NCBI GenBank assembly: GCA_016183425.1
Contig: JACPEP010000001.1
Span: forward strand, 62,001-126,000
DNA: 64,000 nucleotides
Direction: 5' to 3'
DNA from: Chloroflexota bacterium
GTDB lineage: Bacteria > Chloroflexota > Dehalococcoidia > JACPEP01
In this document: positions 5,312 through 9,333 of the stretch, piece by piece
Layout: each line of letters begins with the position of its first letter
Position numbering within the stretch: the first letter of the stretch is position 1
Program-made: the position numbers and the translations under genes
Notes under the pieces: generated by a model
Told to the model about the DNA's origin: nothing
Databases searched by the model: none
What the model saw: only the letters and a program-made list of their open reading frames with translations

Positions 5312-8300
5312 TCACGCTTTCTTGACTGCCAGGACTACCTGGTGGCCGTCCACTCGGTGGCTTTGCACAAAGGCACCCTCTGTGGGCACTACCGCCACCA
5401 GATCGCAGGATAGAGTCTCCCGCTTGATATAGTCAGCGAAGTTCCTCATCACCTGGTGGATGGCCTCTTCCCCCTGGTAATAGGTGTGGATGCGATCGGC
5501 GATGTCGAAACCGGCGGTGCGGCGCATGGCCTGGAGGCGACGCACAATCTCGCGCGCCGTGCCTTCGTCGGCCAGCTCAGGGCTAACGGTCTTGGGCACG
5601 GCGACAACGTAGTTCCACTGGGTGACAACGCTGTAGTCATCGGGGAAGGCTTCCTTATCAGCAGTACCCACCTCCAGAGCCTTGACGTTCAGCTCCTCCA
5701 GCAGGTGGGAGGATAGCCTTTGGAGCCAGGCCGCCTCGCCCTCCGAGCCTACCTTTACCGTCACCTTTGCCAGGGGCTGGCGCACCTTGATGCCCGCCTT
5801 TTGGCGGGCATCTCGGCCCAGGCTGCAAATGAGCCGGGTAAGCTCCACCGCCCTTCCCAACTCTTCGTCCACCAAGCTCTTGTCGGCGGTGGGGAAGTCC
5901 GTCAGATGAACGCTCTCCGGAGCCCCGCTGTCCCAGGTGCGCACCAGATTCTGGTATAGCTCCTCAGCCAGGAAGGGGGCAAGGGGAGCCATCAGCTTGG
6001 CTAGCGTCACCAGGCAGTGATAAAGGGTGTGGTAGGCGGCCATCTTGTCGGCGTCATTCTCGCTCTTCCAGAAGCGACGACGGCTGCGCCGCACGTACCA
6101 GTTGGACAGGTTATCCACGAAGGACTGGATGTGGCGTCCCCCGTCCGTGGAGTTGTAGCTCTCGAAACTGGCCGTCACCTCTTCCACTAGCCGGTTCAGC
6201 TCCGATAGGAGCCAGCTATCCAGTTGGGAGTATCGGCCTGGTTTGGGGGTGGTGCCGGGGTGAAAGCCGTCGATATTGGCGTAGGTGACGAAGAAGGAGT
6301 AGGTATTCCACAGGGTGCTGAGGAACTTGCGCACCACCTCCGCCACCGCCTCCGGGTCGAAGCGGCGCACGTTCCCGGCTCCGGTGGCCGTGAACAGATA
6401 CCAGCGCAAGGCATCGGCGCCGTAGCTGTTGAGCACCGTCCAGGGATCAACCACGTTGCCCCGGGACTTGCTCATCTTCTCCCCTTTGCTGTCCAGGATA
6501 TGGCCCAGGCAGATGACGTTTTTGAAGCAGGGCTGGTCTTTGAGAAGGGTAGCCAGGGCGTGAAGGGTGTAGAACCAGCCCCGGGTCTGATCCACCGCCT
6601 CGCAGATAAAGTCGGCGGGGAAATTCCGCTCAAAGGTCTCTTTGTTATCGAAGGGATAGTGCCACTGGGCGTATGGCATGGCCCCGGAGTCGAACCAGGC
6701 GTCCAGCACCTCCGGGACGCGCTCCATACTGGACCCTTGGCATTTAGGACATCGGAAGGTGGCCTCATCGATGAAGGGGCGGTGGAGGTCGAAATCACCT
6801 CGAGGGCCGGAGTATTCCGGCATCCCCTGAAGCTCCTCCCGGCTCCCTATACACATATGATGGCCGCATCCGCGGCAGCGCCAGATAGGCAGGGGGGTGC
6901 CCCAGTAGCGCTCCCGCGAGACGGCCCAGTCCACATTGTTCTCCAGCCAGTCCCCAAAGCGCCCCTCCTTGATGTGCTCCGGGTACCAGCTGATTTCCTT
7001 ATTGTTGGCTATCAGCCGGTCTTTTAAGGCGGTGGTTTTGATGTACCACGAGCTTTTAGCATAGTAGAGAAGGGGCGTGTCGCAGCGCCAGCAGAAAGGG
7101 TAGGTATGAGTAATGGTGCTGCTACGCAGGAGAAGGCCGCGACGGCGCAGGTCTTCAATGATGAAGGGATCGGCGTCCTTGACGAACTTCCCCGCCCAGG
7201 GCGCTACGGCATCGATGAAATTGCCCTTCAGGTCCACGGTGTTGATGAGGGGCAGACCGTTGGACTGCCCCAGGTCGAAGTCCTCCTGGCCGAAGGCGGG
7301 GGCGATGTGCACGATGCCCGTTCCCTCCTCCATGGACACGAAGTCCGCCGGCACCACACAATGAAAGTAACCCTGAGGAAGACCAAAAGAGTAAAGAGGC
7401 TCGTAGTATAGTCCCGCCATCTCCCCGCCGGAGGACTCCGCCACCACTTTTGCCTCGGCGTCCCCCAGGGCTGACTTAAGAAGGGCCTTGGCCATGATCA
7501 GCCGTTCCACCACACCATCAGGAGAAAGGGTCTCCACCGACACATACTCTTCGTCGGGGGCTACCGCCAGGGCAACGTTGCCCGTCAGTGTCCAGGGGGT
7601 GGTGGTCCAGGCCAGGAGGGTCGGCACTGGCCCCGTCCATTCCGCCTTTTGGGGGTCCCACCCCAGCTTCCGAGCCACCTGGTTGTCCTGGCGCTGCACG
7701 TCTTTGCGGAGACGGAAGAGGACGTAGACGGAGGGGTCAACGGCGTCGTCCCGATAGCCCAGGGCTACCTCATGGGAGGAAAGGGAGGTGCCGCAGCGGG
7801 GGCAATGGGGAGTCACCCGGTAGCCCTGGTAGACCAAACCCCTGTCCCACAGGCTCTTTACTACCCACCAGACAGACTCGATGTAACCGTTGGTGAAGGT
7901 GACATAGGGATTGGCCATGTCCAGCCAGAAGGCGATGCGCTCCGTCATGGCCTCCCAGTCTTTGACGTAGCGGAAGACGCTGGCTCGGCACCGCTCGTTG
8001 AATCGGTGGACCCCATAGGCCTCGATCTCCGCCTTGCTGGAGAAGCCCAGCTCCCGCTCCACCTCCAGCTCCACAGGCAGGCCGTGGGTATCCCACCCCG
8101 CCTTGCGGGGGACGTAATAGCCCCCCATGGCGCGGTACCTCAGGATAACGTCCTTGAACACCCGGGCCAGGACATGGTGGATGCCGGGGGTGCCATTGGC
8201 GGTGGGAGGGCCCTCATAGAAAGCGAAGAGAGGGCCATCGCGCCGCCCCTCCAGGCTCTGGGCAAAAATGTCCCTCTCTTTCCAAAAGCGGAGGATGTTT

Positions 8301-8353
8301 GTCTCTAGCTCTGGAAAGCTTACCTTGCTGGTTACGTCTCTAAACATCGCCAC
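5312..8353 (-). CDS. ileS: Isoleucyl-tRNA synthetase, long IleRS2-like form with altered GIHH signature
   Basis: 1013 aa; FYEGPPTANGTPGIHHVLAR, GWDTHGLPVE, GEKMSKSRGN, multiple CxxC motifs. Confidence 0.96.
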   Translation of the reverse strand: MAMFRDVTSKVSFPELETNILRFWKERDIFAQSLEGRRDGPLFAFYEGPPTANGTPGIHHVLARVFKDVILRYRAMGGYYVPRKAGWDTHGLPVELEVERELGFSSKAEIEAYGVHRFNERCRASVFRYVKDWEAMTERIAFWLDMANPYVTFTNGYIESVWWVVKSLWDRGLVYQGYRVTPHCPRCGTSLSSHEVALGYRDDAVDPSVYVLFRLRKDVQRQDNQVARKLGWDPQKAEWTGPVPTLLAWTTTPWTLTGNVALAVAPDEEYVSVETLSPDGVVERLIMAKALLKSALGDAEAKVVAESSGGEMAGLYYEPLYSFGLPQGYFHCVVPADFVSMEEGTGIVHIAPAFGQEDFDLGQSNGLPLINTVDLKGNFIDAVAPWAGKFVKDADPFIIEDLRRRGLLLRSSTITHTYPFCWRCDTPLLYYAKSSWYIKTTALKDRLIANNKEISWYPEHIKEGRFGDWLENNVDWAVSRERYWGTPLPIWRCRGCGHHMCIGSREELQGMPEYSGPRGDFDLHRPFIDEATFRCPKCQGSSMERVPEVLDAWFDSGAMPYAQWHYPFDNKETFERNFPADFICEAVDQTRGWFYTLHALATLLKDQPCFKNVICLGHILDSKGEKMSKSRGNVVDPWTVLNSYGADALRWYLFTATGAGNVRRFDPEAVAEVVRKFLSTLWNTYSFFVTYANIDGFHPGTTPKPGRYSQLDSWLLSELNRLVEEVTASFESYNSTDGGRHIQSFVDNLSNWYVRRSRRRFWKSENDADKMAAYHTLYHCLVTLAKLMAPLAPFLAEELYQNLVRTWDSGAPESVHLTDFPTADKSLVDEELGRAVELTRLICSLGRDARQKAGIKVRQPLAKVTVKVGSEGEAAWLQRLSSHLLEELNVKALEVGTADKEAFPDDYSVVTQWNYVVAVPKTVSPELADEGTAREIVRRLQAMRRTAGFDIADRIHTYYQGEEAIHQVMRNFADYIKRETLSCDLVAVVPTEGAFVQSHRVDGHQVVLAVKKA

Positions 8354-8371
8354 TCAGTGACATACGAAATA

Positions 8372-8396
8372 ATCCCGTCCCCTTGGGGGACGGGAT
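8372..8396. terminator. Hairpin ATCCCGTCCCC-TTG-GGGGACGGGAT between the TA module and ileS
   Basis: Perfect 11-bp stem, 3-nt loop; function as terminator/attenuator inferred. Confidence 0.5.
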
Positions 8397-8490
8397 AGCT
8401 TCCCCTCCAGTTTGAGCCTAGAATAGCTTATCACGGGGTAGAGGAAAAATCAAGGAACTGTACTCACAATACCAACCTCTCAGAACAAGA

Positions 8491-8808
8491 TCAAATCCTA
8501 AGGTCAAGAGCAAAGACAATGCCCTTAGCCACCGCAGTCATCCTCTCTGGAGATAACGTGGTAATTCGTTCCGTCAGCCTGGACTTGGGGATGGTTAGAA
8601 TATCGTCTAGGTTTGCTACACAGTATGTCGGCATTCCATCTTCTTTCCCAAGAGGCACTTCCACCGGAATGTTGCGAATGGTGCGGGTGACTATGCCAAC
8701 AGTCACCGAGGTTCTGACGTTATATGCAGCATCCCTTGACAACAAAAGAACCGGACGTTTACCAATCGGCGGAGACAGTTCAGCCCACCATATTTCGCCG
8801 CGCCGCAT
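8491..8808 (-). CDS. MazF/PemK-like type II toxin (endoribonuclease)
   Basis: MRRGEIWWAELSPPIGKRPVLLLSRD...VTVGIVTRTIRNIPVEVPL matches MazF/PemK fold pattern; directly downstream of RHH antitoxin. Confidence 0.88.
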   Translation of the reverse strand: MRRGEIWWAELSPPIGKRPVLLLSRDAAYNVRTSVTVGIVTRTIRNIPVEVPLGKEDGMPTYCVANLDDILTIPKSRLTERITTLSPERMTAVAKGIVFALDLRI

Positions 8809-9060
8809 TTACCATGACTCCGCGGACAGGAACTCTCCCGACGTTGCTACTTGTATCTCCCCCATCTCTGGCTCTTCTGGGATTTTTGTGTATCCCTGCT
8901 GATAAATCCTGTCTAGCTCTTCATCGTTAACTTTTTGCAAATAACTCAGACAGGCTTGGCGAATTAGTTCGGATCTGGTTTTATGCTGCTTTTTAGACAA
9001 GCTATTCAAGTCTTTAAGGAGCATTTCATCAACTGGTACTTGTATCAACTTCTTGACCAC
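8809..9060 (-). CDS. Ribbon-helix-helix antitoxin partner of the MazF-like toxin
   Basis: KLIQVPVDEMLLKDLNSLSKKQHKTRSELIRQACLSYL RHH pattern; stop codon immediately abuts toxin ATG. Confidence 0.85.
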   Translation of the reverse strand: MVKKLIQVPVDEMLLKDLNSLSKKQHKTRSELIRQACLSYLQKVNDEELDRIYQQGYTKIPEEPEMGEIQVATSGEFLSAESW

Positions 9061-9071
9061 CTAATCCCTCC

Positions 9072-9115
9072 ACAATATTGTTACACAACATTGTACACAT
9101 TGCATTACACAATGT
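9072..9115. promoter_or_regulatory. Candidate autoregulatory operator of the MazEF-like module
   Basis: Overlapping inverted repeats: ACAATATTGT (10-bp palindrome), ACAACATTGT, ACATTG-cattaca-CAATGT, just upstream of the antitoxin start. Confidence 0.5.
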
Positions 9116-9220
9116 CAAAACAGCTTGCGAGATGGCGGGAGCTTCTGAAAGCTAACTAAGAGGTGTACAGAAAAACTGATGGTAAACGTCGGCTAATTTT
9201 CGCTAAAGTTTTGTGAACAA

Positions 9221-9266
9221 TGGGCGATACAGAACTTGAACCTCTGGCCTTCTGTGTGTAAAACAG
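9221..9266 (-). pseudogene. 3' fragment of tRNA-Val (anticodon loop to 3' end), displaced duplicate
   Basis: 44/46 identical to 10876-10921 of the intact tRNA-Val; identity stops abruptly at the 5' side of the anticodon stem. Confidence 0.9.
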
Positions 9267-9333
9267 CGGCGTCAAAACGGTGTGGCCCAAAGCTGCGGTT
9301 GCCAGGGAAAAGCATCTGGCTATCATCTAAAAA

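Follow-up and report, generated by a model that had tools for sequence, protein, structure and literature searches.

Identity of the ileS gene and its product

Does the isoleucyl-tRNA synthetase (IleRS) encoded in this stretch of Chloroflexota DNA, 64,000 nucleotides long and hereafter the window, carry GIHH at the place of the class I signature HxGH, and what would such a swap mean for isoleucine activation and for the response to mupirocin? The question concerns the following features.

5312 to 8353, minus strand: ileS, isoleucyl-tRNA synthetase type 2 (TIGR00392, Pfam, PDB 1ILE at 972 bits)
8174 to 8185, minus strand: altered class I signature GIHH replacing HxGH, residues 57-60 (sequence, gap-free alignment, recurrence)
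6464 to 6478, minus strand: canonical KMSKS signature, residues 626-630 (ORF translation and alignment)

The open reading frame (ORF) encodes 1013 amino acids from a GTG start. An ATG at 8347 is an equally or more probable start, because the protein would then begin with MFRDV, which aligns with the N-terminal MFKEV of Thermus IleRS; counted from this ATG, GIHH occupies residues 55-58. Against TIGR00392 the product scored 962 bits, above the curated cut-off of 621.4 and over profile positions 3-856 of 861, which identifies it as a full-length IleRS. Pfam domains tRNA-synt_1, Anticodon_1 and DUF5915 were found, the last at the C-terminus (residues 905-1012) as the tRNA-binding domain characteristic of type 2 enzymes, and phmmer aligned a weak second stretch with the C-terminus of Priestia megaterium IleRS2 (PmIleRS2). 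The best solved homologue in phmmer was Thermus thermophilus IleRS2 (PDB 1ILE, 1JZQ, 1JZS; 972 bits for 1ILE, 54% identity), followed by PmIleRS2 (8C8U and relatives; 911 bits, 48% identity); IleRS1 structures scored at most 332 bits, and identity with E. coli IleRS1 was 29%. By identity, phmmer scores and the tree described below, the protein thus groups with the eukaryote-like IleRS2 and not with IleRS1, in line with the preliminary description of this DNA, which had called it a long IleRS2-like form with a canonical KMSKS; the latter indeed stands at residues 626-630. In the alignment the ORF is full-length, with editing and KMSKS motifs intact.

The GIHH signature is authentic and in register

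On the minus strand, the codons GGC ATC CAC CAT at 8185-8174 specify G57-I58-H59-H60, that is, the first His and the Gly of the signature are exchanged, as had been read before. In phmmer alignments with reference IleRS, these residues pair gap-free with the HVGH of both T. thermophilus 1ILE and P. megaterium IleRS2; in Priestia chain 8c8w, which has the same swap, their counterpart is GVHH. A displaced canonical HxGH beside GIHH, a reading raised in the preliminary description, was rejected, as the alignment holds none in the neighbouring region, PPTANGTPGIHHVLARV. With Gly at position one and His at position three, GIHH fits the sequence definition of the published G/AXHH subgroup.

The assembly is a 52-contig draft, so it has to be asked whether GIHH results from a mistake in sequencing or assembly at an ordinary HxGH. 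Such an error, however, would require at least three codons to be wrong in frame to yield GxHH, and GxHH occupies the same column in independent genomes (104 of 110 relatives; 144 genomes by DNA pattern). This recurrence excludes chance or error; we consider an error vanishingly improbable, and refuted for practical purposes.

GxHH is the usual state in the sampled Chloroflexota

In the sample of 110 IleRS relatives, which was collected by similarity to a GxHH enzyme, the 104 GxHH proteins comprised 68 GIHH, 29 GVHH and 7 GLHH, and the remaining six were five HxGH and one truncated protein. Dehalococcoidia MAGs (L010, L011, L013, L028 and L045) are among the closest named relatives, which makes the organism a member of the Chloroflexota, probably of the Dehalococcoidia. 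At the level of the class, 29 of the 30 readable IleRS loci, the window's included, were GxHH. These two counts argue that GIHH is neither an error nor peculiar to the organism. Of 399 genomes of the phylum, 144 contained a match to a strict DNA pattern encoding P[TS]AN[GA]xPGxHH, and 3 a match to the HxGH counterpart of this pattern. Many genomes fit neither pattern because the flanking residues differ: when 57 IleRS were read from 60 genomes that were unmatched or specially chosen, most of the pattern-unmatched ones proved to be GxHH with other flanks. GxHH was also present in records labelled Bacteroidota, Gemmatimonadota, Bacillota, Pseudomonadota, Deinococcota and Cyanobacteriota. GxHH is therefore the usual state in the sampled Chloroflexota, is found in several other phyla too, and is not special to the window organism. 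A published exception to one of the most conserved enzyme motifs thus covers almost all sampled members of one bacterial class, and its spread suggests intrinsic mupirocin tolerance in many uncultured Chloroflexota.

The swapped enzyme is the only IleRS found in the genome

The genome (2.70 Mb, 52 contigs) has an estimated completeness of 95.3% and a contamination of 0.3%. The protein had earlier been noted as the only visible IleRS, and a family search of the whole genome bears this out, with a single locus above the IleRS cut-off and no second ileS; a second copy keeps a small chance because about 5% of the genome is missing. The weaker matches were other class I synthetases with canonical signatures, named here from motif context and length: ELHLGH in a 908-aa ValRS-like ORF, DLHIGH in a LeuRS-like one (849 aa), PLHLGH in a MetRS-like one (559 aa) and AMHVGH in a CysRS-like one (460 aa). 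As these four keep HxGH, the swap is specific to IleRS within this genome.

Being the only IleRS that the search of this largely complete (95%) genome brought up, the window enzyme is expected to be active in isoleucine activation. The contrary reading is that the protein is a paralogue, either inactive or specialised, and that a canonical housekeeping IleRS is missing from the assembly, for which the roughly 95% completeness leaves some room; but the full-length ORF with intact editing and KMSKS motifs, and the occurrence of the same GxHH protein as the sole IleRS in many relatives that are at least 95% complete, make this highly improbable. Two overlapping partial IleRS matches were seen on separate contigs of one relative, genome G004 (C297:3-2207, profile 3-704, and C98:6289-7905, profile 310-858), which may reflect two ileS genes or contamination.

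An acquired gene of the MupA/MupB type was also considered. The window IleRS is homologous to these mupirocin-resistant enzymes (NF000257 and NF000258), but its scores of 835 and 820 bits are under half of the 1900-bit cut-offs, and this assignment was rejected; MupA and MupB are acquired extra genes in staphylococci, whereas the window ileS is the housekeeping copy.

Expected catalysis and mupirocin resistance

The preliminary description had mentioned a GXHH variant of some IleRS2 linked to extreme mupirocin resistance, and this variant is indeed in print. According to Brkic et al. (2023; PMC10485003), G/AXHH occurs in 86 of 163 IleRS2 (about half) and in no IleRS1, and the Ki for mupirocin changes with it by a factor of 200 to 800. 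There, Deinococcus radiodurans IleRS2 (DrIleRS2; ALHH) is given a Ki of 6.6 mM, 823-fold lower as HVGH, and a change to GVHH raises the Ki of Thermus IleRS2 to 35 uM and that of Priestia IleRS2 to 460 uM, with kcat or KM altered up to about tenfold. The same article reports crystal structures in which the IleRS2 motif is shifted, the position-three His avoids a clash with adenine and its imidazole takes over the site of action of the first HIGH histidine, and modelling in which this His would clash with mupirocin (PMC10485003). The GIHH swap is thus a published phenomenon, and nothing at the locus goes beyond the published kind.

By comparison with these systems, the G/AXHH IleRS2 of D. radiodurans and Streptomyces griseus are likewise housekeeping enzymes with the first and third HIGH residues exchanged; the window enzyme differs from the Deinococcus one in having GIHH for ALHH and in its Chloroflexota lineage. 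Thermus IleRS2, the best-scoring solved structure, differs in its canonical HVGH and a Ki of 0.20 uM. PmIleRS2 (8C8U-8C8W, 8C9D) is of the same type and its GVHH mutant reproduces the window's swap, but its natural form has HVGH, and its host has an IleRS1 as well.

On these grounds we hold, with high confidence, that the window encodes a housekeeping, apparently single-copy IleRS2 whose GIHH, as in the G/AXHH subgroup, should leave it active and strongly mupirocin-resistant. Sequence, alignment, copy number in the assembly, clade and distribution were observed directly; catalysis, His geometry and resistance are all read across from homologues. With the first and third HIGH residues exchanged to give GIHH, the imidazole of the third-position His would come to occupy the working position of the first HIGH histidine, and activation of isoleucine by ATP is still expected because the one would substitute for the other. 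The bulk of the same His would clash with bound mupirocin, from which strong resistance is expected. Residue mapping points the same way: the mupirocin contacts Asn70 and Phe586 of PmIleRS1 correspond to Ala63 and His618 in the window IleRS (the latter also His, His582, in PmIleRS2), so that two IleRS1-specific mupirocin-binding residues are absent, which favours resistance. Predicted from homology, the resistance is well supported, and it is very probable that the organism relies on an IleRS resistant to mupirocin. Its size would depend on the scaffold, because the same motif gives a Ki from 35 uM (GVHH Thermus) to 6.6 mM (Deinococcus). As the nearest characterised scaffold, GVHH Thermus, reaches only 35 uM, hyper-resistance in the millimolar range is not certain.

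A probable reversion and the history of the motif

A tree of 142 IleRS, built by a fast maximum-likelihood method (one distant outgroup; support given as SH-aLRT only), placed the window protein in a clade of 43 rows, 42 of them GxHH. An IleRS with HIGH and KMSKH (L122; G119:C141:32508-35078), 58% identical to the window protein, was nested inside this GxHH clade and is a probable natural reversion of the swap to HIGH. Thermus IleRS lies near GxHH enzymes in the tree, and its HVGH is regarded as a natural reversion by Brkic et al. (PMC10485003). The GxHH label requires several changes on the tree. We claim no ancestral state of the motif, because the rows were found through a GxHH enzyme, with one distant outgroup and SH-aLRT as the only support.

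These patterns bear on whether the swap is an adaptation to mupirocin. The swapped enzyme may simply work, GxHH being a state of Chloroflexota IleRS2 that is old, neutral or selected for other reasons, with resistance as a by-product. The near-fixation of GxHH in the class and in most of the phylum as sampled, the position of a HIGH enzyme within the GxHH clade, and the wide spread in environmental lineages with no sign of recent local selection all speak for this, but a sample collected on the basis of its resemblance to a GxHH enzyme cannot fix polarity, and we rate it a serious contender at somewhat under even chances. The more specific history, in which GxHH is the old Chloroflexota IleRS2 default with repeated reversions to HxGH (such as L122) and with mupirocin resistance as a by-product, is offered a little more tentatively still. 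The reading of the window enzyme as an active, mupirocin-resistant IleRS2 is the one that we retain.

Two further genomes of the same class, both of one family, carry HYGH/KLSKK enzymes that group with Patescibacteria-type IleRS (L110 in G013 and L125 in G234), and a third genome of this family has an IleRS of the GVHH/EMHKS type (L171 in G348). As the types differ within one family, ileS was probably replaced there through transfer.

A separate Chloroflexota clade with an altered KMSKS site

Outside the window, 41 sampled Chloroflexota IleRS (L126, L128-L150, L160-L176) form one clade with support 100. Their HIGH site reads GVHH in 37, AVHH in 2 and GIHH in 2, and their KMSKS site is of the [E/P/Q/A/D]MHKS type (EMHKS in 20, PMHKS in 11, PMHRS in 3, and similar), with no KMSK-like string elsewhere in these proteins; the DQTRGWF (DQxRGWF) site is mostly GQFRNWF or EQIRLWF. 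Most score above the IleRS cut-off, and the family search listed no second IleRS in their genomes. In the papers searched, none names the clade, which may correspond to the minor IleRS2 branch of Brkic et al. (PMC10485003). The probable L122 reversion and this lineage provide enzyme pairs for probing the catalytic roles of HIGH and KMSKS residues; both may interest specialists, and neither lies within the window.

The region upstream of ileS

Three features lie upstream of ileS.

8372 to 8396, minus strand: terminator-like hairpin followed by UUAUUU, just upstream of ileS (sequence, RNA fold)
8491 to 9060, minus strand: PemK/MazF-like toxin and ribbon-helix-helix (RHH) partner
9334 to 9856, minus strand: ParE-like toxin and weak RHH partner

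The hairpin is strong and separates the PemK-like gene from the start of ileS; it is a putative terminator of the upstream genes or a putative attenuator. Control of ileS by a T-box was rejected, as 8300-9400 gave no Rfam match at the gathering threshold and none plausible at E<=1, and the Rfam search returned no credible family, T-box or other, for the hairpin itself. The fold of the ileS leader is overall not unusual (z -1.46). The two toxin-antitoxin modules, both of type II, together span 8491-9856 on the minus strand, directly upstream of ileS.
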